From Candidatus Delongbacteria bacterium (GTDB taxonomy: Bacteria; Delongbacteria; UBA4055), in NCBI GenBank assembly GCA_027858795.1, contig JAQICF010000100.1:1-6952 (forward strand): a stretch of DNA of 6,952 nt, given 5' to 3'. The notes beneath the pieces were generated by a model. It was not told the origin of the DNA and searched no databases. It saw only the letters and a program-made list of their open reading frames with translations. This document shows, one piece after another, positions 1 through 6,952 of this stretch. The stretch's first letter is position 1; each line of letters starts with the position of its first letter. The position numbers were made by a program, and so were the translations under genes.

Positions 1-2
1 AG

Positions 3-86
3 ATTAAAGATTTATTACGAATTCACCGAGGATATTCTAAGAAATTAAGAAATAAAATTATTAATGAAATTTTATTAAAAAATTGA
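3..86 (+). CDS. 3' end of an unidentified gene (partial)
   Basis: The frame beginning at base 3 is open from the window edge to a TGA at 84-86. It gives a basic 27-residue tail that includes LLRIHRGYSKKLRNK. One other + frame stops at once and the remaining one stops by base 48. A Lys/Arg-rich, Leu/Ile-rich tail is plausible for a real protein end, but it is too short to assign to a family. The next gene-like signal is 110 bases downstream. This could also be chance open sequence in AT-rich DNA. Confidence 0.35.
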   Translation: MKDLLRIHRGYSKKLRNKIINEILLKN

Positions 87-141
87 TAAATAACAACACA
101 AAAAAGGTATTAACCCAAAGATTCTTAGAAAAGCAAGCAAA

Positions 142-175
142 GGGTCACTATATGACACGATGCTAATGTTATATT
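142..175 (+). promoter_or_regulatory. Shared leader element, copy 1: GTCA-N5-TGAC plus promoter-like stretch
   Basis: The stretch reads GGGTCACTATATGACAC followed by GATGCTAATGTTATATT. It contains a perfect short inverted repeat, GTCA (144-147) and TGAC (153-156). The same arrangement recurs at 4600-4632 and 5937-5969, each time shortly before a gene start. If TATATT (170-175) is a -10 box, transcription would start about 15 bases before the ATG at 197. No convincing -35 lies at 17-bp spacing, so the exact promoter boxes are unresolved. The inverted repeat could be an operator. Confidence 0.45.
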
Positions 176-196
176 GAAACAGAAGACGGAGAATAA

Positions 197-256
197 ATGG
201 AAAATAATATATTCGTATTTACATCAGACAAAACAAATCTAAAATCCAACCCTTAA
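197..256 (+). pseudogene. Truncated N-terminus of a paralogue of the 1423 gene
   Basis: An ATG at 197, preceded by a GGAG-type ribosome site (188-192), opens a 19-residue frame, MENNIFVFTSDKTNLKSNP. The larger gene at 1423 begins MENNIFIYSPDEQDIK. Eight of the first 16 residues are identical and most of the others are conservative. The match then ends where the attC-like sequence begins, and the TAA at 254-256 lies inside that site. The simplest reading is the surviving start of a second copy of the gene, cut off by insertion of the HNH cassette or by deletion. It still has a promoter-like element and a ribosome site, so a tiny peptide could be made. An independent small gene is the alternative. 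Confidence 0.45.
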
Positions 257-322
257 CATTGGCAAAACAACTTGGACACCCGACTTGACTTAGTGAATCA
301 CTTTTTGCCATATCCGTTTGGA
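248..322 (+). repeat. attC-like site 1 (left boundary of HNH cassette)
   Basis: The left half is AACCCTTAACATTGGCAAAA (248-267) and the right half is TTTTGCCATATCCGTTTG (303-320). TGGCAAAA and TTTTGCCA are exact inverted complements separated by about 35 bases. The outer AAC and GTT triplets sit where integron attC sites carry their R'' (RYYYAAC) and R' (GTTRRRY) boxes. The length, about 75 bp, is within the attC range. The R boxes are only partly complementary beyond AAC/GTT, so the assignment is tentative. The same two halves, with identical spacing to GTT, recur after the HNH gene. Confidence 0.45.
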
Positions 323-342
323 CAAACAAATGAGAATCAACC

Positions 343-1122
343 ATGAAATGTGTTTTTTGCAAAGAAAACTCTGATAATAGTAAAAGTATAGAGCATATCA
401 TTCCTGAAAGTTTGGGGAATAAGAATGCTGTATTAGCTAAAGGTATTGTATGTGATTCTTGTAATAATTATTTTGGTGGAAAAATTGAAAAAGACTTATT
501 AGGTTCACCATTTTACAAATCTTTAAGAAGTAGATATGGTATTGAAAGTAAAAAGGGAAAAATTCCACTAAATGTCGGTTATTTACCAATAACTGGTAGT
601 GAAATAGAAGTTGATTTTAATGGAATCCCAGAACAAAATAGCCGAACTTTGAATGTGAATATTCCCAAAAAGTCTGATTTTCATAAGATCCTTAATGGTG
701 AAATTAATGAATTATATATTCCCGTTTCATTTGATCTGGAGAAAAGTAAAATAGTATCAAGATTTTTAGCAAAAGTAGGAATTGAAGTTGTCGCTCAAAA
801 ATATTGGGATTCTGAACGAGATGTCAGTTACTTAATTACTGAAGAACTTTTTGATCCTATACGAAACTATGCAAGATATGGTAAAGGAGTAGAATTATGG
901 GACTATCATCAAAGGCGAATCTATGAAGAAACAGAAGAAGCTAAATCACTTCAGAAAATATATGAGTTTAATATTTGGTCTACTGAAGATAATGATAATG
1001 CCTTAGGTCTTCATTTAACGATTGTGCTTTACGGATTAGAATTCACTATCAATTTATTTGAACCATCAATCAATAGGTATCAAAAGTGGTTAAGAGAAAA
1101 TGACAATAAAATTCCAATATAA
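343..1122 (+). CDS. HNH endonuclease family protein (HNH_5-like)
   Basis: Predicted metal-dependent DNA nuclease of 259 residues. The N-terminus shows the HNH signature. A zinc knuckle is formed by C3-x2-C6 and C37-x2-C40. The catalytic-type EHIIPESLGN carries H18, and CNNYFGGKIEKDLL follows with Asn41/42. This spacing is typical of HNH proteins of the HNH_5 kind. Residues from about 60 to 259 are a mixed alpha/beta region I do not recognise; it probably sets target specificity. The start is fixed by MKCVFC, since a later start would remove the first cysteines. The ribosome site is weak (TGAGAA about 10 bases upstream). The gene begins 26 bases after the GTT of attC-like site 1 and ends just before site 2, with no promoter of its own visible, as in integron cassettes. 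Function in defence or mobility is inference. Confidence 0.85.
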   Translation: MKCVFCKENSDNSKSIEHIIPESLGNKNAVLAKGIVCDSCNNYFGGKIEKDLLGSPFYKSLRSRYGIESKKGKIPLNVGYLPITGSEIEVDFNGIPEQNSRTLNVNIPKKSDFHKILNGEINELYIPVSFDLEKSKIVSRFLAKVGIEVVAQKYWDSERDVSYLITEELFDPIRNYARYGKGVELWDYHQRRIYEETEEAKSLQKIYEFNIWSTEDNDNALGLHLTIVLYGLEFTINLFEPSINRYQKWLRENDNKIPI

Positions 1123-1127
1123 ATACA

Positions 1128-1182
1128 AACCCATAACATTGATAAAAACCATTACACCAAAATTTTGCCATTTCCGTTAGCA
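1128..1182 (+). repeat. attC-like site 2 (right boundary of HNH cassette)
   Basis: The left half is AACCCATAACATTGATAAAA (1128-1147) and the right half is TTTTGCCATTTCCGTTAG (1163-1180). These match site 1 at nearly every position, with the same 5-base gap between TTTTGCCA and GTT. The arms TGATAAAA and TTTTGCCA pair with one wobble and one mismatch. The HNH stop codon lies 5 bases upstream, the usual place for a stop relative to attC. Recombination between the two GTT triplets (316 and 1176) would excise a circle of 860 bp. Confidence 0.45.
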
Positions 1183-1422
1183 GTAATTCTAAAAAGGATA
1201 AAAAAAACAATATGAATATATTCGACTATCCAAGCAATAAATTACTAAAGCACGATGAGTGAGGAAGAAATGAGGATTGTTGAGGGGAATGGAAAATGGA
1301 TGAGATAAAAAACGATAAAACATAGTATCGAAGGTATTACTGGGATTATTTAATGGTTGCACTAATTCGGAAATTAGCTTAAAATGTGACATTATAAAAA
1401 TTGGATTGTTTGAGGTATTGAT
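1183..1422. other. Gene-poor stretch between HNH cassette and 1423 operon
   Basis: No long reading frame is present. A 16-codon frame starts at 1212 (MNIFDYPSNKLLKHDE, stop 1260-1262) behind an A-rich AAAGGAT. Its MNIF start faintly echoes the MENNIF starts at 197 and 1423. A second, 17-codon frame begins at 1255 and overlaps that stop. Neither is convincing as a gene. A perfect small stem, CTAATT-CGGA-AATTAG, lies at 1362-1377 without a T-tract. Any promoter for the downstream operon should be here: TTGCAC (1357-1362) and TATAAA (1393-1398) are present, but their spacing is too long for a standard promoter. Confidence 0.4.
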
Positions 1423-2031
1423 ATGGAAAATAATATTTTTATTTATTCGCCTGATGAACAAGATATTAAATTTGAAAGATTCCATATTTGTGTTTGGGAA
1501 TTCAGGAATGGAACTTCTATCATTGAAATAGGGGGAGAGATAAAGCATGATTGCTTGACAAACTTAGATCAGCTTTCAATATATTTATACATTCCTTGGA
1601 TAAATAATAATCATAAAGTTATAGATCTTTACGATAATTTAAAAAACCCTGAAAATAGTAGATTCATCTTTAATGATTCTGTTATAGATACTAAATCCCT
1701 TGATGGTGGAATAGGCATTGGAGGTGTAATACATTCTTTTGTTTCAAGAGATCGCCTTTGTATTCTTCCCATTCAACCTGATGATATTATCGATTCTACT
1801 AACAAGATAGTCAAACTTTCACTTAACTCTCTTAAGAAGAGTGAAGGAGCAAACGTATATTTTCGATTTTATATCGAAAATGATATAAAATTATTGTCAA
1901 CTAGGAAAACTGGGATTACACACTCTACAATTATTTATGATTTTAAAATAAACGAAAAAGGAATTTATATGGTATCTCAAATATCGTTAACGAAAAGGCA
2001 TTATGTGATATTGCCTCATGCTTTTTCTTAA
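1423..2031 (+). CDS. Unknown protein, likely N-terminal part of a frameshifted membrane gene
   Basis: A 202-residue product of unknown family. The ATG has a good ribosome site, GAGGT, 6 bases upstream (1412-1416). The protein has many alternating hydrophobic/polar stretches suggesting beta strands, for example HICVWEFRNG and LSIYLYIPWI, and a Gly-rich GGIGIGGV in the middle. It has no signal peptide or membrane segment. The last 16-20 residues look less natural than the +3 frame that overlaps them. That frame is open from 1947 and runs through to 2489. A single-base deletion between about 1947 and 2028 would explain this: the intact ancestor would be about 354 residues, with two membrane helices at its end. 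A 19-residue relative of this N-terminus lies at 197-256. If translated as is, this is a soluble truncated product. Confidence 0.6.
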   Translation: MENNIFIYSPDEQDIKFERFHICVWEFRNGTSIIEIGGEIKHDCLTNLDQLSIYLYIPWINNNHKVIDLYDNLKNPENSRFIFNDSVIDTKSLDGGIGIGGVIHSFVSRDRLCILPIQPDDIIDSTNKIVKLSLNSLKKSEGANVYFRFYIENDIKLLSTRKTGITHSTIIYDFKINEKGIYMVSQISLTKRHYVILPHAFS

Positions 2032-2096
2032 ACATAATTCCAAATTCTTACGAACTTAATTTCGTTGATAATACTGTTCTGAAGAGTATTAGAACA

Positions 2097-2489
2097 TTGG
2101 AATATCCATCTTTTACGAGATACTTAGGTGATAAAAGAGTTAAAAAAGATGAGCATATTGTTGTATTCCATAAGAAAGAGAATAAAGACAGTTATAATTT
2201 TTTTATTAAATATTCTAAAGAAAGAATTGGAATGGATCAGATCGCTTTAGCGATATCTATTAGCTTATTATCAGGCCTATTATTGTACATGCCTTCATAT
2301 AAGAAAGAAGTCGATGATACATATTTTTCTGTTGCTTTTTGGGGTAAACTACCTCCAGAGGTAGTTATCTCGACATGTTTAGTGATAATTGTATTACTAT
2401 ACTTTTTCATACCTTTTATCGTTACTTATATAATGAGGATTATTGGTGAAATTAAGAAATTTATAAAGGAGACTTTGAGAAAAAGATGA
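2097..2489 (+). CDS. Two-helix membrane segment, likely C-terminal part of the 1423 gene
   Basis: If begun at the TTG at 2097, this gives 130 residues. The same frame is open upstream to 1947 and reads naturally there (NIIPNSYELNFVDN), and no good ribosome site precedes 2097. I therefore think it is the rest of the 1423 gene after a frameshift. Two transmembrane segments are clear: about residues 48-65 (IALAISISLLSGLLLYM) and 88-112 (VVISTCLVIIVLLYFF). Basic stretches lie before the first (KYSKERIG) and after the second (RIIGEIKKFIKETLRKR), so both ends are predicted in the cytoplasm. The stop overlaps the next ATG as ATGA, implying translational coupling to the PIN fusion protein. No family recognised. 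Confidence 0.55.
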   Translation: MEYPSFTRYLGDKRVKKDEHIVVFHKKENKDSYNFFIKYSKERIGMDQIALAISISLLSGLLLYMPSYKKEVDDTYFSVAFWGKLPPEVVISTCLVIIVLLYFFIPFIVTYIMRIIGEIKKFIKETLRKR

Positions 2490-3997
2490 AAGTGTTATTA
2501 GATACAAATATAATTATACATAGAGAAACCAGTCATATTATAAATAAATCTATCGGACAACTTTTTCGTCTACTCGACAAAGGGAAGTATACTAAATGTA
2601 TACATCCAGTTACGATCAAAGAAATTGAGAAAAATTTAAACTTATTAACAGTTCAGTCTTTCCAAGTAAAGTTAGAAAGTTACAAGCAGTTAATTCAAAC
2701 CACACCTATAGGTCAGGAATTTAAATTTATTATAGAAGAAATTGATAAAAGCCAGAACGATTTCAACGATAGCATATTATTGAATGAAATTTATATGGAA
2801 AGAATTGATTATTTTATTACAGAAGATAAGAAAATTCATAAAAAAGCAAAATTACTTGATATCGATGACAAAGTATTTACAATTGAAACTTTCATTGATA
2901 AAGAGTTATCGGAGCATCCTGAACTTATCAATTATAAAGTATTATCTGTAAGAAAAAAAAGGTTTGGAGAGTTAAATATAAATGATGTATTTTTTGATAC
3001 TTTTAAAAACGATTACAATGGATATGTTAAATGGTTTACAAGGAAAGCTGATGAGTTTATATATGTAACTTATGAAGACAATTTCATTGCTTCCTTACTT
3101 TACCTTAAAGAAGAAGACCATTCAGAAGACTATTCAAATATTAATCCAGTGTTTTTTCCAAAAAAGAGATTAAAAATTGGTACTTTTAAAATCACTAGAA
3201 ATGGAGCAAGGCTCAGTGAAAGATTTATCAAAATTATCTTTGATAATGCGTTACGAATGAAAGTTCAAGAAATATATGTTACAATTTTTAATAAGGATTT
3301 AGAAAAGAAAATGTTACTTAATCTGCTATTTGATTGGGGATTTAAATTTCATGGATATAAACAAACTGCAAGCGGTAAAGAGGAAGTTTATATACGGGAT
3401 TTCATCCCTTACTTCGATTACACAGATCCAAAATTATCCTATCCATATATAACTAAGAATAATTCGATCTTCTTAGCACCGATATATCCTGACTACCACA
3501 CCGACTTACTCCCCGATTCGTTATTAAATAACGAAAAACCAGAAGAATATAAGGAAGAAACTCCTCATAGAAATGCTCTTAAAAAAGTGTATATATCGAG
3601 ATCAATAGAAAGAAATGTTAAACAAGGAGATTTGATCATTTTCTACAGGACAGGGGGTTACCATAAAAGTGTTATTACTACTTTGGGTGTTGTTGAGAGC
3701 ATAGTTTTCTCATTTAAGAATTCAAAGAATTTTATTACAAAATGTAGGAAGAGAAGTGTATACTCAGATCAAAAGCTTTTAGAGTGGTGGAATTACAATT
3801 CAAATTACAGACCTTTTATTGTAAACTTTTTGTATTGCTATACATTACCTAAAAGAATAAATTTAAAAAAGATGATCGATTTGGGTATTATTGCTGATAT
3901 AAATTCTGCTCCAAGAGGCTTTACGAAAATCTCGAAAGAACATTTTGAAACGATTTTAAGGGAGACCCATACAAATGAAAGTATTATTGTCGATTAA
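2486..3997 (+). CDS. PIN ribonuclease - GNAT-like - PUA/EVE-like fusion protein
   Basis: A 503-residue multidomain protein. Residues 1-135 are a PIN domain, a metal-dependent RNase fold. The usual four acids are visible: D6 in LLDTN, E46 in TIKEIEKN, D95 in NDFNDSILL and D114 in YFITEDKKI. Residues about 150-306 resemble a GNAT acetyltransferase fold, with a core helix after TRNGARLSERF and a late WGFKFHGY segment. The acetyl-CoA loop departs from the standard RxxGxG/A pattern, so activity is uncertain. Residues about 327-497 (FLAPIYPDYH..., GDLIIFYRTGG) look like a PUA/EVE-type nucleic-acid-binding domain. The start overlaps the previous stop (ATGA), with AGGAG at 2467-2471. The end overlaps the ASCH gene by 23 bases. 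The inferred role is cleavage of RNA, perhaps modified RNA or tRNA, as a toxin or defence effector. The PIN call is firm, the other two moderate. Confidence 0.8.
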   Translation: MKVLLDTNIIIHRETSHIINKSIGQLFRLLDKGKYTKCIHPVTIKEIEKNLNLLTVQSFQVKLESYKQLIQTTPIGQEFKFIIEEIDKSQNDFNDSILLNEIYMERIDYFITEDKKIHKKAKLLDIDDKVFTIETFIDKELSEHPELINYKVLSVRKKRFGELNINDVFFDTFKNDYNGYVKWFTRKADEFIYVTYEDNFIASLLYLKEEDHSEDYSNINPVFFPKKRLKIGTFKITRNGARLSERFIKIIFDNALRMKVQEIYVTIFNKDLEKKMLLNLLFDWGFKFHGYKQTASGKEEVYIRDFIPYFDYTDPKLSYPYITKNNSIFLAPIYPDYHTDLLPDSLLNNEKPEEYKEETPHRNALKKVYISRSIERNVKQGDLIIFYRTGGYHKSVITTLGVVESIVFSFKNSKNFITKCRKRSVYSDQKLLEWWNYNSNYRPFIVNFLYCYTLPKRINLKKMIDLGIIADINSAPRGFTKISKEHFETILRETHTNESIIVD

Positions 3998-4346
3998 ACC
4001 AGAATATGCCAATAAGATATTTGCAGGTACAAAAAAGTACGAATTTAGGCGTAGTATTTTCAAAAATCCGGATATTAAAACTATTGTTGTTTATTCCTCT
4101 TCACCTGTTCAAAAAGTAATCGGCGAATTTGAGATTGAAAGAATTTTAAATAATAGTATCAATGATCTATGGAATATTACAGAGCAGGAATCCGGGATCA
4201 ATAAAGAATTCTTTTTTGAGTATTACAAAGGCAAAGAAACAGGTTTTGCAATAAAGATCAAAGAACCAAAGAAGTATGAAATCCCTTTAGATATCAAGCA
4301 TGATTTTAACAAAACCCCACCACAGTCATTTGTGTACATTTCATAA
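3975..4346 (+). CDS. ASCH-domain (PUA-fold) protein
   Basis: A 123-residue protein made of a single ASCH domain, a PUA-like fold thought to bind RNA. It carries the family motif GxKxxExR as G18-T-K20-K-Y-E23-F-R25, a following KTIVVYSSSPVQKVIGEFE strand region, and the C-terminal PPQSFVYI end common in such proteins. It is often annotated as a predicted transcriptional regulator. The start lies inside the end of the PIN fusion gene, with an AAGGGAGA ribosome site at 3958-3965, so the two are co-translated. As partner of an RNase it could be the specificity or neutralising subunit; this is inference. A 114-bp copy of its 3' end lies at 6617-6730. Confidence 0.88.
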   Translation: MKVLLSIKPEYANKIFAGTKKYEFRRSIFKNPDIKTIVVYSSSPVQKVIGEFEIERILNNSINDLWNITEQESGINKEFFFEYYKGKETGFAIKIKEPKKYEIPLDIKHDFNKTPPQSFVYIS

Positions 4347-4365
4347 AAGATATAACAGATATCTT
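4347..4365 (+). repeat. Perfect stem-loop directly after the ASCH stop codon
   Basis: AAGATAT-AACAG-ATATCTT gives 7-bp perfect arms starting at the base after the stop. It is AT-rich and not followed by a T-tract, so it is at most a weak 3' mRNA stabiliser. The ASCH remnant at 6617-6730 lacks this stem. Confidence 0.4.
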
Positions 4366-4392
4366 ACAAGAATTGAAAAGGGTAAAGATAGG

Positions 4393-4420
4393 TATGAAGT
4401 ATGAGGTATGAAGTATGAGG
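4393..4420. repeat. Heptamer tandem repeat TATGARG x4
   Basis: Four contiguous 7-base units alternate TATGAAG and TATGAGG. They lie in the non-coding stretch 4347-4676, which has no gene and is made almost entirely of repeats and transcription signals. Confidence 0.8.
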
Positions 4421-4425
4421 TGGCT

Positions 4426-4444
4426 CATGGATTCGCTGGGTTTG
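4426..4444. repeat. 19-bp dispersed repeat, copy 1
   Basis: CATGGATTCRCTGGRTTTG occurs here and at 5744-5762, with two differences. In each case it lies between the preceding gene and the heptamer/terminator block, so it belongs to the same duplicated intergenic unit. Confidence 0.7.
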
Positions 4445-4452
4445 GGTTGGTT

Positions 4453-4486
4453 CAATTGACAGTTGACAATGGACAATTTACAATTA
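4453..4486. repeat. Imperfect tandem repeat of ACAATT/TTGACA type
   Basis: The stretch contains CAATTGACAGTTGACAATGG and continues with ACAATTTACAATTA. It is a run of degenerate 9-11 base units built on ACAAT and TTGAC. No coding meaning is seen. The TTGACA hexamers resemble -35 boxes but have no matching -10 in phase. Confidence 0.5.
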
Positions 4487-4503
4487 AAGTCAAAAGATCC
4501 CAA

Positions 4504-4545
4504 CTTCTGACCTCTAATCTCTAACCTCTAACATCTAACATCTAA
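4504..4545. repeat. Heptamer tandem repeat YHTCTRA x6
   Basis: Six contiguous 7-base units: CTTCTGA, CCTCTAA, TCTCTAA, CCTCTAA, CATCTAA, CATCTAA. The terminator stem begins exactly at the end of the last unit. A four-unit version precedes the second terminator at 5855-5882. Confidence 0.85.
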
Positions 4546-4569
4546 AAGCTCCTACAGGGGCTTTTTTTT
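4544..4569 (+). terminator. Rho-independent terminator after the ASCH operon
   Basis: The stem AAAAGCTCC / GGGGCTTTT has one T-G pair and a TACA loop, followed by a run of eight T (4562-4569). It separates the 1423-4346 operon from the first DUF1016 gene. The same terminator recurs at 5883-5906. Confidence 0.85.
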
Positions 4570-4599
4570 ATTAATAAAATCACAAATAAAATACCAAAA

Positions 4600-4632
4600 G
4601 GTCACTATTTGATACTTTGCTAATGTTATATT
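4600..4632 (+). promoter_or_regulatory. Shared leader element, copy 2, before first DUF1016 gene
   Basis: GGTCACTATTTGATAC is followed by TTTGCTAATGTTATATT. The inverted repeat is GTCA/TGAT, one base short of perfect. With TATATT (4627-4632) as -10, the leader would be about 38 bases to the ATG at 4677, with the AGGAG ribosome site at 4664-4668. A canonical -35 at 17-bp spacing is not seen. Conservation with the copies at 142 and 5937 is the main support. Confidence 0.5.
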
Positions 4633-4676
4633 GCTCTTAAAAGATGAAATAAAAGTAATAAACAGGAGAAAGAAGG

Positions 4677-5726
4677 ATGAAAGCACTTAGTGAAAAAATA
4701 GTTGAATTAATTGAAAATGCACGAGTCTATGTTTCTAAGACAGCTAATACAACTATGGTATATACCTATTTCCATATTGGCAAACTTATCGTTGAAGAAA
4801 TGCAAAAAGGAGAAGAAAGAGCTGAATATGGAGCAAATTTATTAATACAAGTTTCAATAGATTTAAAAAAGAAATTTACAAAAGGTTTTTCTGTTCCTAA
4901 TCTTGAACGAATGAGAATATTTTATTCGATTTATTCAAAATCCTCAAACAACTTGAGGAATTCTGACATTTTTAAAAAATCCTCAAACAGTTTGAGGATT
5001 TCTCTATCAAAAAACAAAACTATAAATTTACTACCATTAGGTTGGTCGCACTATCTATTTCTTTTGAGGATAGATAATGAAGTAGAACGACAATTCTACG
5101 AAGTGGAAAGCTATAAAAATCAATGGAAGTTAAAAGAATTAGAACGACAGTTTAATTCCGGTTTATTCGAAAGACTTTCATTAAGTAAGAATAAAGATGA
5201 GATAATTACACTTGCTAAGAAAGGTCAAATAGTAGAAAAACCAGAAGATGTAATAAAAGATCCACTTATTTTGGAATTTCTAGGTTTGGACGATAAACCC
5301 AAATATACAGAAACAGATTTGGAAACTGCCATTATAAATAAAATTGAAGATTTTATGATGGAATTGGGAAAAGGTTTTTTCTTTGGAGGAAGGCAAGTTC
5401 GATTTACTTTTGATGAAGAGCATTTCTTTGTTGATCTGGTATTTTACAATCGGTTGCTTAAATGTTTTGTACTTATTGATCTGAAGATCGGTAAATTAAA
5501 ACATCAAGACCTTGGGCAAATGCAAATGTATGTAAATTATTACGATAGATATGTAAAGCAAGAAGATGAAAATCCAAGCATAGGTATAATTATTTGTAAG
5601 CACAAAAAAGAAACTATGGTTGAAATCACATTACCTGAAAATAACAAACAACTTTTTGCATCTAAATACCAAACTATATTACCTAGTAAAAAAGAACTTA
5701 AACAGATAATAGAGAATAATTTATAA
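4677..5726 (+). CDS. DUF1016/YhcG-like PDDEXK nuclease, complete
   Basis: A 349-residue protein with the full architecture of the YhcG/DUF1016 family. The N-terminal helical domain (about 1-85) contains KGEERAEYGANLL and KGFSVPNLERMRIFY. A hinge with GWSHYLFLLRID and LKELERQFNSGLFERL follows. The C-terminal PD-(D/E)XK nuclease domain (about 205-349) has D253 in FFVDLVFY, D268-L-K270 in VLIDLKIG and Q281 in GQMQMYVNYYDR, the expected active-site pattern. Length is normal for the family. These proteins are predicted DNA or RNA nucleases, often in mobile or defence regions; their exact target is not established. Start chosen from AGGAG 8 bases upstream. The hinge holds two in-frame palindromes (4941-4959, 4977-5001). 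Own terminator-promoter leader, so transcribed separately from the ASCH operon. Confidence 0.92.
   Translation: MKALSEKIVELIENARVYVSKTANTTMVYTYFHIGKLIVEEMQKGEERAEYGANLLIQVSIDLKKKFTKGFSVPNLERMRIFYSIYSKSSNNLRNSDIFKKSSNSLRISLSKNKTINLLPLGWSHYLFLLRIDNEVERQFYEVESYKNQWKLKELERQFNSGLFERLSLSKNKDEIITLAKKGQIVEKPEDVIKDPLILEFLGLDDKPKYTETDLETAIINKIEDFMMELGKGFFFGGRQVRFTFDEEHFFVDLVFYNRLLKCFVLIDLKIGKLKHQDLGQMQMYVNYYDRYVKQEDENPSIGIIICKHKKETMVEITLPENNKQLFASKYQTILPSKKELKQIIENNL
4941..4959. repeat. Coding palindrome A in DUF1016 hinge
   Basis: TCCTCAA-ACAAC-TTGAGGA, with 7-bp perfect arms, encodes SSNNLR. A second, closely related palindrome starts 39 bases (13 codons) later in the same frame. Confidence 0.85.
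4977..5001. repeat. Coding palindrome B in DUF1016 hinge
   Basis: Perfect 11-bp arms, AAATCCTCAAA and TTTGAGGATTT, around a CAG loop. It encodes KSSNSLRI. With palindrome A it forms a repeated in-frame module, K-S-S-N-x-L-R-x-S. Confidence 0.9.
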
Positions 5727-5743
5727 TACAAACCAGGATAATT

Positions 5744-5762
5744 CATGGATTCACTGGATTTG
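5744..5762. repeat. 19-bp dispersed repeat, copy 2
   Basis: CATGGATTCACTGGATTTG follows the stop of the first DUF1016 gene by 17 bases. It matches 4426-4444 at all but two positions. Confidence 0.7.
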
Positions 5763-5808
5763 TTGTTTGACTCGAGGAAATAAAGAAAAGTCAAAACATG
5801 AATATCTC

Positions 5809-5820
5809 CCGATAAATCGG
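5809..5820. repeat. Short palindrome CCGAT-AA-ATCGG
   Basis: Perfect 5-bp arms within the intergenic stretch between the two DUF1016 genes. It may be the core of a decayed dispersed palindromic repeat. No gene is seen nearby. Confidence 0.4.
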
Positions 5821-5854
5821 TACAAATCAAGGAGAGAAGATTAAAAGATTCCAA

Positions 5855-5882
5855 CCTCTAACTTCTGACCTCTAACCTCTAC
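5855..5882. repeat. Heptamer tandem repeat x4 before second terminator
   Basis: Units CCTCTAA, CTTCTGA, CCTCTAA, CCTCTAC run directly into AAGCTCC, the left arm of the terminator. Confidence 0.85.
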
Positions 5883-5906
5883 AAGCTCCTACAGGGGCTT
5901 TTTTTT
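5883..5906 (+). terminator. Rho-independent terminator after first DUF1016 gene
   Basis: AAGCTCC-TACA-GGGGCTT stem with one T-G pair, followed by eight T (5899-5906). It is the same element as at 4544-4569. Confidence 0.85.
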
Positions 5907-5936
5907 ATTAATAAAATCACAAATAAAATACCACAA

Positions 5937-5969
5937 GGTCACTATTTGACACTATGCTATGGTTATCTT
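5937..5969 (+). promoter_or_regulatory. Shared leader element, copy 3, before truncated DUF1016 gene
   Basis: GGTCACTATTTGACACT carries the perfect inverted repeat GTCA (5938-5941) and TGAC (5947-5950), followed by ATGCTATGGTTATCTTT. The TTGACA here is a canonical -35 hexamer, but it lies only 12 bases from TATCTT. Either the -10 lies elsewhere or TTGACA belongs to the operator-like repeat. The gene start is about 30 bases downstream. Confidence 0.45.
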
Positions 5970-5998
5970 TCATAAAAAACATTAATTAAATCGGTAGG

Positions 5999-6559
5999 AT
6001 GATGAATGCAAAATTAATAGAAGAAAATCTTTTCAATCGTGTAGATAATATTCTCAGTATTGCTCACAAGAATATTGTAACTTCAGTAAATATTAATATG
6101 GTTATTGCATACTGGCTAATAAGAAGAGAGATCGTTATAGAATTGCAAGCTGGCAAGAAAAGAGCAGCTTATGGAAAAAAGATAATTGAAGATTTATCAC
6201 AAAAACTAAATAAAAAATATAAACAAGGGTTTTCTATTAGGAATTTACAATACTTTCGAAAATTCTATACAGTATTTTCTGACAGAATAACAATTTCGCA
6301 CCCGCTGGGTGCAGAATTCAAAGACGATAATCAATTTTCAGATAACTGTAATAATAGTAGTGGTTTAGCAATTATGCACTCACTGGGTGCGGAATTTAAA
6401 AGAATGAAAATACACTCTTTCTCTCCTCAATTATCGTGGTCTCATTATAGAGCCTTATTAAAATCAAATGATAAAAAAGCAAGACAGTTTTATGAAGATG
6501 AAGCAATAGCTTGTGGATGGAACAAAAGAGATTTAGAGAGAAATAAAGTTATTTGTTGA
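5999..6559 (+). CDS. DUF1016/YhcG-like protein truncated before its nuclease domain
   Basis: A 186-residue paralogue of the 4677 gene. It contains the family's N-terminal helical domain (YWLIRREIVIELQAGKKRAAYG, then KQGFSIRNLQYFRKFY) and the hinge motif LSWSHYRALLK. It continues through GWNKRDLER, then ends with NKVIC and a TGA, where relatives read ERQI...ERL and go on into the PDDEXK domain. The D...DLK active site is therefore missing and the product cannot be a nuclease on its own. It might survive as a DNA-binding or dominant-negative N-domain, but decay is likelier. The start is ATGATG at 5999; with GGTAGG touching the first ATG, the second (6002) is equally possible. The hinge holds two in-frame palindromes (6298-6312, 6376-6390). 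Identity to the neighbour is moderate, so the pair is an old duplication or two separate arrivals. Confidence 0.8.
   Translation: MMNAKLIEENLFNRVDNILSIAHKNIVTSVNINMVIAYWLIRREIVIELQAGKKRAAYGKKIIEDLSQKLNKKYKQGFSIRNLQYFRKFYTVFSDRITISHPLGAEFKDDNQFSDNCNNSSGLAIMHSLGAEFKRMKIHSFSPQLSWSHYRALLKSNDKKARQFYEDEAIACGWNKRDLERNKVIC
6298..6312. repeat. Coding palindrome C in truncated DUF1016 hinge
   Basis: GCACCC-GCT-GGGTGC, perfect 6-bp GC-rich arms in AT-rich surroundings, encoding the start of HPLGAEFK. Confidence 0.85.
6376..6390. repeat. Coding palindrome D in truncated DUF1016 hinge
   Basis: GCACTC-ACT-GGGTGC, 6-bp arms with one T-G pair, encoding the start of HSLGAEFK. It lies 78 bases (26 codons) after palindrome C, in the same frame. 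Confidence 0.85.
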
Positions 6560-6616
6560 AATGTAAGGATAAATCATATATTACAGTATCCAAAAATGGA
6601 GTCCCTAAACAGATGA

Positions 6617-6730
6617 AAAGAAACAGGTTTTGCAATAAAGATCAAAGAACCTAAGAAGTATAAAATCCCTTTAGATATTAAAAGTGATTTTAACAAAACC
6701 CCACCGCAGTCATTTGTGTACATCACATAA
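6617..6730 (+). pseudogene. 3' remnant of a second ASCH-domain gene
   Basis: A 37-codon stretch plus stop begins KETGFAIKIKEPKKY and ends TPPQSFVYIT. It matches the C-terminus of the ASCH protein (DNA 4233-4346) with about nine base differences in 114 by my reading. The codon directly upstream in this frame is TGA and there is no start, so it cannot be expressed as a protein. Homology begins abruptly at 6617. It marks the end of a deleted ASCH copy, now placed just after the truncated DUF1016 gene. Confidence 0.9.
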
Positions 6731-6762
6731 AAAAGATCCTAAGATAAATCCAGGAATATATA

Positions 6763-6814
6763 AGTTGAAACAAGGGGATCTAATCCCCTTGACTGGCATA
6801 TAGCCAGTTCAACT
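6763..6814. repeat. Three-way-junction palindromic element
   Basis: The outer stem AGTTGA (6763-6768) / TCAACT (6809-6814) encloses two perfect hairpins. One has 9-bp arms, CAAGGGGAT (6771-6779) and ATCCCCTTG (6783-6791), around CTA. The other is ACTGGC-ATATA-GCCAGT (6792-6808). There is no T-tract, so it is not an ordinary terminator. It may be a mobile palindromic repeat or a structured RNA. It lies between the ASCH remnant and the IS end in otherwise featureless DNA (6731-6843). Confidence 0.75.
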
Positions 6815-6854
6815 GAAATATAACGAATGCGGATAAATTAATCTGTACCCTTTG

Positions 6855-6952
6855 TCAAGGACAATGATAAAAAGGGGGTTGTTCTAAAAGTTGACTTCTG
6901 TATTCAACAGGAGTCAACTTTTTCAAATCCCATTGTGGTCTATCATTGTTAT
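6855..6952 (-). CDS. IS3-family transposase (OrfB, integrase core), C-terminal fragment
   Basis: Read on the minus strand from the window edge, the frame gives 31 residues beginning NNDRPQWDLKKLTPVEYR and ending FYHCP before the stop at 6857-6855. YNNxRPHxxL...TPVEYR is the hallmark C-terminus of IS3-family DDE transposases of the IS150 group, just after the catalytic core. The gene is incomplete only because the window ends. A 16-bp stem (6886-6922) lies inside this coding end. The element probably helped mobilise or rearrange the neighbouring duplicated genes. Confidence 0.9.
   Translation of the reverse strand, partial: NNDRPQWDLKKLTPVEYRSQLLEQPPFYHCP
6886..6922. repeat. Long hairpin inside transposase 3' coding end
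   Basis: Arms AAAAGTTGACTTCTGT and ACAGGAGTCAACTTTT pair over 16 bp with one T-G pair around an ATTCA loop. On the + strand the right arm runs into TTTTT (6919-6923), so it could act as a terminator for transcripts entering the IS from the left. Confidence 0.75.

Follow-up and report, generated by a model that had tools for sequence, protein, structure and literature searches.

In the window considered here, a stretch of 6,952 nucleotides (nt) of Candidatus Delongbacteria bacterium (assembly GCA_027858795.1, contig JAQICF010000100.1, positions 1 to 6,952 of the forward strand), two genes belong to the YhcG/DUF1016 family, a widespread and poorly understood bacterial family of predicted DNA-cutting enzymes. 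Gene 1 (4677..5726, plus strand) encodes an intact protein of 349 amino acids with a DUF1016_N domain and a YhcG_C nuclease domain of the PD-(D/E)XK type (PF17761, E 8.9e-35; PF06250, E 7.7e-57). Its acidic residues and lysine, D253, D268 and K270, are invariant across 49 aligned sequences. Gene 2 (5999..6559, plus strand) encodes a short protein of 186 amino acids that consists of the N-domain and a hinge only, and the Pfam scan found no match to YhcG_C in it. DUF1016_N scores above the curated cut-off in both genes. DUF1016_N and YhcG_C were the only Pfam matches of gene 1 at E ≤ 0.001, with no Y1 tyrosine transposase domain among them, and a sequence search of the Protein Data Bank with gene 1 as query returned nothing at E ≤ 10. 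Both genes carry palindromes in the hinge, the segment between the N-domain and the WSHY motif, and across the family the bases of these palindromes covary with residues of the protein in whose gene they lie.

The first palindrome of gene 1 is TCCTCAAACAACTTGAGGA (4941-4959, centre 4950) and the second, with the same core, is AAATCCTCAAACAGTTTGAGGATTT (4977-5001, centre 4989), both on the plus strand. The centres are 39 nt apart, and the encoded peptides are KSSNNLRNS and KSSNSLRIS. Direct reading and rescanning placed this pair exactly where an earlier, sequence-only reading of the window had reported it. In gene 2, GCACCCGCTGGGTGC (6298-6312, plus strand) has perfect 6-bp arms and GCACTCACTGGGTGC (6376-6390, plus strand) lies 78 nt away; they encode HPLGAEFK and HSLGAEFK. 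The positions, the spacing and the perfection of the first palindrome were as reported, whereas the second, also described as a GCACCC/GGGTGC palindrome, has one T.G mismatch (GCACTC/GGGTGC). Both pairs lie between FYSIYS or FYTVFS and WSHY, in a single frame and within repeated peptides, as had been noticed.

The proposal that the hinge is a special place for palindromes was borne out when the segment before WSHY was scored against the rest of the gene. Of 82 genes, the two in the window and 80 relatives, 81 entered the analysis; one relative (L026) was dropped because its hinge could not be delimited. These first 80 relatives were picked by similarity to gene 1, from a larger number of genome loci, so the sample is non-random. 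The mean length of the longest odd-palindrome arm was 9.9 nt in the hinge, versus 5.5 nt under synonymous codon permutation (100 shuffles, highest shuffle mean 5.8) and 5.3 nt in windows of the same size in other parts of the gene. Arms of at least 8 nt were found in 73% of genes versus 5.5% in the null, and arms of at least 10 nt in 51% versus 0.6%. Hinge palindrome centres (runs of at least 7) were distributed over codon positions as 107:5:4, with position 1 holding 107 of 116, and outside the hinges the same scan gave 29:25:29. Among the 120 matches listed (7999 scored), two to four SSxxLR-like hinge units occurred in 112, one in 6 and none in 2; two of these 120 relatives were incomplete or lacked a WSHY match.

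Enlargement to 175 genes added phyla centred on Firmicutes, Proteobacteria, Bacteroidota, Nitrospirota and Planctomycetota loci, with the group label being that of the centre genome. Four open reading frames (ORFs) whose hinge started before residue 50 and genes with an identical hinge region were dropped; the residue-50 filter was also applied to the gene sets used afterwards. At a threshold of at least 9 of 11 pairs, 176 hinge centres fell on codon position 1 and 5 in the other two phases; outside the hinges, 8, 11 and 10 centres per phase were counted over 9.5 times more positions. At a threshold of at least 8 of 11, a hinge palindrome was present in 221 of 240 genes, including yhcG of E. 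coli K-12. At four-fold degenerate sites within hinge palindromes, the wobble base was the Watson-Crick partner in 1005 of 1113 cases, which is the reverse of the silent, pairing-breaking changes that the sequence-only reading had named as counter-evidence. These palindromes had been preselected at 8 of 11 pairs or better, and the unbiased test is the synonymous null of the 81-gene set. The cores vary widely, as in GTCAGACAGTGTCTGAC, TCCGAGACAGTGTCTCGGA and CAAATTGCTACGCACTGCGTAGCAATTTG; recurrent features are the outer AATT/AATT and an R-N-Y centre. Separately, 17 DUF1016_N matches with internal stops were seen among the matches listed in a Fusobacteriota-centred search, suggesting rapid turnover of DUF1016 genes. 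Two scans of viral contigs yielded 7 and 0 loci.

Covariation between protein columns and palindrome bases was computed for the 221 genes with a hinge palindrome (effective number of sequences 107; 3465 pairs of column and offset from the palindrome centre; top z after average product correction, APC, 12.4). Three N-domain columns follow the palindrome most closely: −13, −10 and −9, counted back from the hinge, in the context GFS-x-[−13]-NL-[−10]-[−9]-MRxFY. They are hypervariable amid conserved residues and are spaced i, i+3, i+4, so they lie on one helix face. Column −13 tracks offset 7: arginine goes with G in 66 of 70 genes and glutamate in 15 of 19; glutamine (13/13), alanine (10/10), aspartate (16/19) and lysine (9/10) go with C; threonine goes with T in 24 of 35, and serine is split (C 16, T 10 of 30). 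Column −10 tracks offset 8, where glutamate (46/49) and aspartate (13/13) go with C (together 59/62), lysine (41/53) and arginine (31/43) with G, and tryptophan (23/25), phenylalanine (7/7) and tyrosine (5/5) with T (together 35/37); glutamine is mixed. Column −9 tracks offset 5, with asparagine (51/57) and glutamine (41/47) going with A (together 92/104), as do tyrosine (36/36) and leucine (18/19), and arginine with C (31/38). Textbook major-groove contacts join arginine and lysine to G, glutamate and aspartate to C, asparagine and glutamine to A, and tryptophan, phenylalanine and tyrosine to T. Judged by this comparison, the assignments appear to follow major-groove chemistry, with arginine at −9 presumably reading the G opposite C on the other strand. 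Glutamate at −13 with G, and the mixed serine and threonine at −13 and glutamine at −10, depart from simple chemistry. Behind the hinge, columns C2, C5 and C30 track offsets 3 and 4 (APC z 8.9 for C2 and 11.1 for C5). No column exceeds C2, the second residue of WSHY, in partial correlation (0.31). In gene 1, the WSHY-L start of this post-hinge helix lies at 5043..5057 (plus strand), and its serine and leucine columns are those that covary with offsets 3 and 4.

The association was retained in several tests. Mutual information for −13, −10 and −9 was 0.73, 0.72 and 0.47, versus maxima of 0.19, 0.24 and 0.15 in 300 whole-set permutations and of 0.29, 0.29 and 0.33 when shuffling was confined to clusters of 55% identity, the largest of which holds 159 of the 221 genes. 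Prediction from genes less than 60% identical was right for offsets 7, 8 and 5 in 83%, 77% and 92% of cases, with commonest-base baselines of 47%, 43% and 74%. In sister pairs more than 60% identical, the base differed in 49 of 66 pairs when the residue differed versus 15 of 68 when it was the same (offset 7), in 46 of 63 versus 8 of 75 (offset 8) and in 22 of 62 versus 5 of 64 (offset 5). For seven plasmid genes obtained later, whose nearest training protein is 50-72% identical, the code was right at 16 of 20 scorable bases versus 9 of 20 by commonest base; the worst was L338, with 1 of 3 (L266 and L267 were not counted as held-out). Since helix residues covary with palindrome bases, it is very probable that DUF1016_N reads DNA in a sequence-specific manner and that the gene encoding it contains the site it reads.

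In gene 1 the proposed recognition helix is VPNLERMRIFY (4893..4925, plus strand), with the predicted specificity residues P74 (4896-4898), E77 (4905-4907) and R78 (4908-4910) on the i, i+3, i+4 face. The AlphaFold2 (AF2) model places a helix at residues 73-87 (block predicted local distance difference test, pLDDT, 83-88). The AF2 models are weak, with a mean pLDDT of 65 for gene 1 and 64 for L011, and served for helix positions only; the N-domain is helical in the gene 1 model. P, E and R fit C at offset 7, C at 8 and C at 5 of palindrome 1. In gene 2 the proposed helix is IRNLQYFRKF (6236..6265, plus strand), with the candidate residues R (6239-6241), Q (6248-6250) and Y (6251-6253). R fits G(7) and Y fits A(5) of its first palindrome, and Q, which has no clear preference, stands with C(8). 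Both genes belong to the 221 training genes, so their fit is no independent test.

A natural allele swap at the gltD-yhcG-nanQ locus of E. coli gives a further view of this relationship. yhcG of K-12 has three hinge palindromes. Compared with it, the alleles L255, L256 and L261 are 96-97% identical in the C-terminal part, 90-91% in the N-terminal part and only 66-68% in the hinge. Between the K-12 and L255 alleles, 71 of 93 differences fall within nt 241-540. Palindrome 1 is AATTCGCCAGACAGTGTCTGGCGAATT in L252-type strains (one arm of MG1655 has CACC) and AATTGTGCAGACACTGTCTGCACAATT in L255, a joint change of the two arms. In the preceding helix, AKNLRQM of the K-12 type is replaced by TRNLWQF in L255, so that at one locus the residues K, R, Q are paired with CGCCAGACA and R, W, Q with GTGCAGACA. 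The first palindromes of both alleles thus each match the code. The O157:H7 allele is 78 bp shorter, in frame, which is the length of two units. Two truncated alleles, L254 (near 1394) and L260 (near 1201), break at the edges of palindrome 3, one of them next to IS1, and the third truncated allele fetched, L262, breaks upstream of the hinge.

Some DUF1016 genes also have palindromes of this build just outside them. Judged by eye, a 5′ copy directly follows a −10-like box (TATGAT or TATAAT) and precedes the ribosome site in the related loci L051, L058, L077 and L078, and a 5′ copy stands just before the ribosome site in L041, L048 and L151. Copies on the 3′ side lie at +13 to +87 in L288, L121, L135, E. 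coli and L037. For 17 non-redundant flank copies, similarity to the own hinge averaged 11.5 of 16 versus 7.4 for random genes, a value that none of 2000 draws reached. Eight E. coli duplicates, the near-duplicates L042, L058, L077, L318 and L319, and copies with fewer than four core G/C or without a comparable hinge palindrome (L048 among them) had been dropped from this set. Individual scores ran from 16 (L288) down to 8 (L044, L272, L315), 6 (L125) and 5 (L266). The 5′ copies of L024, L041, L051 and L078 fit their own code at 3 of 3 bases; most genes show no such 5′ copy.

The palindromes are rare elsewhere in the genomes sampled. Each of 27 genomes contains 0-2 copies of CAGACANTGTCTG, which add up to 19 places in 16 genomes, and 13 of the 16 places opened were in a DUF1016 hinge, one of them in a paralogue beyond the fetched locus. 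The looser pattern CCTCAANNNNNTTGAGG, with 12 fixed bases, gave 16 places in 9 of 30 genomes, and 3 of 10 opened were in DUF1016-like ORFs, which counts for little in either direction. With an E. coli hinge palindrome as query, a count of places gave at most five per genome in the 5082 matching genomes out of 5426. In the stretches of MG1655 that were read there are three hinge copies, a further copy 27 nt behind yhcG and another in the interval from gltD to gltF. In another strain, a stretch of 50 kb had 8 centres with at least 9 of 11 pairs, none of AATT build. In short-query BLAST searches, the 35-nt E. coli hinge palindrome 1 matched 17 records in a 7.3-Gb plasmid set; 5 of these carry the annotation PDDEXK nuclease, 1 that of a hypothetical protein, and 11 have no feature. 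Three of the latter were opened; in L266 the palindrome is just upstream of a DUF1016 gene, and in L264 and L265 it is intergenic, with no convincing DUF1016 remnant around it. Hinge palindrome 3 matched three phage records, at E 6. The intergenic palindromes of L264 and L265, both Cetobacterium plasmids, are of AATT type with core GTCAGACAGTGTCTGAC (around 2515 in each), no DUF1016 gene is beside them, and one stands behind an apparent remnant of a type I restriction gene. They may be empty sites or sites in trans. DUF1016 genes in L267, L338 and L337 lie between plasmid type I methyltransferase and specificity-subunit genes, or between pglX of a BREX system and a Shedu nuclease gene.

The explanation that we consider probable is that DUF1016_N reads double-stranded DNA (dsDNA) as a dimer, with its cognate site in the hinge, most likely as an autoregulatory brake on the nuclease. 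Most family genes would carry their own site, an odd palindrome of about 25 bp placed in frame between two reading helices and usually built from outer AATT/AATT, an R-N-Y centre and a variable but complementary core. Residues −13, −10 and −9 of the pre-hinge helix would read core offsets 7, 8 and 5, and post-hinge residues would read offsets 3-4. Palindrome and protein coevolve, so that each allele would have a private site. The product would bind its own gene, and cognate copies beside some genes, and would thereby restrain a potentially toxic PD-(D/E)XK nuclease; an operator within the ORF would keep a mobile gene together with its control. From these sequence patterns we infer physical binding, dimerisation, dsDNA as the ligand and repression. 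A self-operator restraining the nuclease would be the most likely purpose. Consistent with it are promoter-side cognate copies in a few loci, specificities that differ among alleles and paralogues, and the fact that the site moves together with the gene. In the genome of Eubacterium plexicaudatum, 14 DUF1016_N matches were found, fragments included.

Several observations weigh against this explanation. It is unusual for an operator to lie about 250 nt into an ORF. No hinge palindrome was found at 8 of 11 pairs in 19 of 240 genes, and a few of the 221 may be due to chance, as about 10 position-1 centres are expected per 175 hinges from the outside rate. The centre of the palindrome of gene 1 itself is C-A-G and not R-N-Y. 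In the 76 multi-unit genes, first units fit the code at 166 of 195 bases, middle units at 51 of 81 and last units at 133 of 190, and many hinge units are therefore non-cognate. Flank copies match their own code at only 28 of 40 scorable bases, and the K-12 downstream copy and those of L037 and L151 miss two of three code bases. An E. coli strain without yhcG retains a palindrome.

Alternatively, the palindromes may act in mRNA as hairpins, which would control translation, be cleaved as RNA by the gene product or make ribosomes pause between the domains. Copies in the 5′ region, the ORF and the 3′ region could all be transcribed, and in the 17 noncoding copies G.T mismatches prevail over A.C (18 versus 3), as a transcribed hairpin would give, which counts against the dsDNA explanation. 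In the hinges, however, G.T mismatches are at expectation (47 versus 45.2) and A.C are in excess (104 versus 70.2). Where T stands opposite a four-fold site, the wobble base is A in 115 cases and G in 5, so G.U does not serve as a substitute. Offset ±1, next to the centre, is complementary in 60% of cases, yet cannot pair in a hairpin. These features point to a two-fold dsDNA site; moreover, aromatic residues go with T, and the pairing of arginine and lysine with G and of asparagine and glutamine with A is typical of major-groove contacts. The hairpin account is weakened and seems improbable as a whole; the noncoding copies may have an RNA role. The sequence-only reading had instead seen small elements, like known protein-coding palindromic repeats, tolerated or attracted by the hinge. 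For a dispersed selfish element resembling Rickettsia palindromic elements (RPEs), repetitive extragenic palindromic (REP) sequences or miniature inverted-repeat transposable elements speak the in-frame palindromes in a linker, the variable unit number and the two intergenic copies on Cetobacterium plasmids without an adjoining DUF1016 gene. The few copies per genome noted above (0-2 for CAGACANTGTCTG, at most five for the E. coli query) led to its rejection for the sampled genomes. Many different cores at one codon phase also speak against it, and neutral insertion would leave the covariation of palindrome bases with the encoded residues unexplained. The earlier observation is confirmed and its interpretation is largely replaced, with a dispersed element now appearing very improbable. 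A mutational by-product, in which template switching perfects chance quasi-palindromes in an unconstrained linker, deserves just as little credence. Template switching can alter the two arms in a single event and would help to account for the fast turnover, but the concentration in the hinge, the codon phase and the covariation with distant codons are left unexplained.

The main rival is that the palindromes are a self-address for homing or gene conversion, at which the nuclease cuts site-bearing DNA and repair copies its own allele or island in. The palindromes would then be both address and recombination junctions, and the targets would be other alleles, neighbouring sites or empty sites. 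The gltF-yhcG block of MG1655 is flanked by two palindrome copies (L331:2145; L161:6983), and strain L328, which lacks the block, has a single palindrome that is 27/27 identical to hinge palindrome 1 of L252 and has the same left context, GAGGTAACAATG. The clustering of the K-12/L255 differences, the conserved nuclease residues and the breaks of two of the three truncated E. coli alleles at an edge of palindrome 3 would also fit, as would the frequent misfit of secondary hinge units and the downstream copy to their own code; the E. coli secondary units fit the other allele. However, the first unit is usually cognate to its own protein and lies inside the gene itself, so the gene would be its own target, and we know of no protection of a DUF1016 gene from its own nuclease. 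The block-free state was read in one strain, where ordinary deletion between repeats also explains it; the third truncated allele breaks upstream of the hinge; L252-type strains carry yhcG but no left palindrome; and the promoter-side copies are left unexplained. Homing is accordingly regarded as possible but unlikely. Slightly more doubtful still is its extended form, in which YhcG alleles would be self-addressed drives with the address in their own ORF, and rival alleles would cut, convert or excise each other's loci. Joint changes in the helix residues and the palindrome would create new addresses, and the additional hinge units and the palindromes beside the genes would be the addresses of rival alleles. 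If so, the alleles would wage a war of specificities within their own coding sequence.

The surroundings of the two window genes show further repeats. A 141-nt intergenic block, 85% identical between its copies, precedes both DUF1016 genes (4513-4653 and 5850-5990); it consists of the terminator-like AGCTCCTACAGGGGCTTTTTTTT followed by a GGTCACTATTTGA.AC motif, and shorter pieces of it stand before the first gene of the window (partly 138-176 and 70-103). These blocks look as if the genes were carried as cassettes. Behind gene 2, the stretch 6609-6737 repeats, at 89% identity, the 3′ end of the ASCH-domain gene (4225-4353); it is probably a scar of recombination. The neighbours at 2486-4346 and 343-1122 encode a 503-amino-acid protein, an ASCH-domain protein and an HNH_5 protein (Pfam); the PIN_3 and EVE matches of the 503-amino-acid protein are both under the curated cut-off. 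From their domains, these neighbours look like a defence or mobile island.

The sites of DNA-binding proteins may lie inside or at the edge of coding sequences, even of their own genes, as lac O3 and O2 do. Those are single operators of single genes, whereas the DUF1016 site occurs across phyla inside the coding text of the DNA-reading domain, in a fixed codon phase, is hypervariable and coevolves with the reading residues. The C proteins of restriction-modification systems have a private palindromic operator, matched to a helix-turn-helix protein that restrains a nuclease. They are separate small regulators with an operator at the promoter, whereas in DUF1016 a single protein is both nuclease and reader, and its site lies within the ORF. 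Homing endonucleases share a site-specific nuclease gene, a long recognition site and presence/absence polymorphism. Their gene normally interrupts and so destroys its recognition site, whereas at the DUF1016 loci examined the palindromes stay intact inside and beside the gene. Like the RPEs of Rickettsia and Wolbachia, the DUF1016 palindromes lie in frame inside ORFs, and the available portion of the same source places DUF1016 on Rickettsia elements (PMC4316617). RPEs are about 100-150 nt long and spread over many genes, whereas the DUF1016 palindromes are about 25 bp and are concentrated in one family and its borders. REP sequences and their associated tyrosine transposases (RAYTs) likewise pair palindromes beside a DNA-enzyme gene in a family-specific manner (PMC3733652, in which the parts available contain no occurrence of DUF1016 or YhcG); there the copy number is high, with GTAG/CGTC tags and a tyrosine transposase, and here a PD-(D/E)XK nuclease has few sites.

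The prediction that YhcG/DUF1016 is a nuclease dates from 2005, when its N-terminal domain had no known match (PMC1189080). As far as titles, abstract openings and term counts indicate, the literature holds no later explanation of the role of this domain and no report of palindromes or DNA specificity in DUF1016/YhcG. To our knowledge, coding text of a DNA-reading domain that doubles as the coevolving target of that domain is an undescribed arrangement. The present data give DUF1016_N a likely role, the reading of DNA, together with a partial residue-to-base code. A candidate target for most members, E. coli K-12 included, may be read from their own gene, and the family would provide a natural dataset of over two hundred predicted pairs of protein and DNA specificity.

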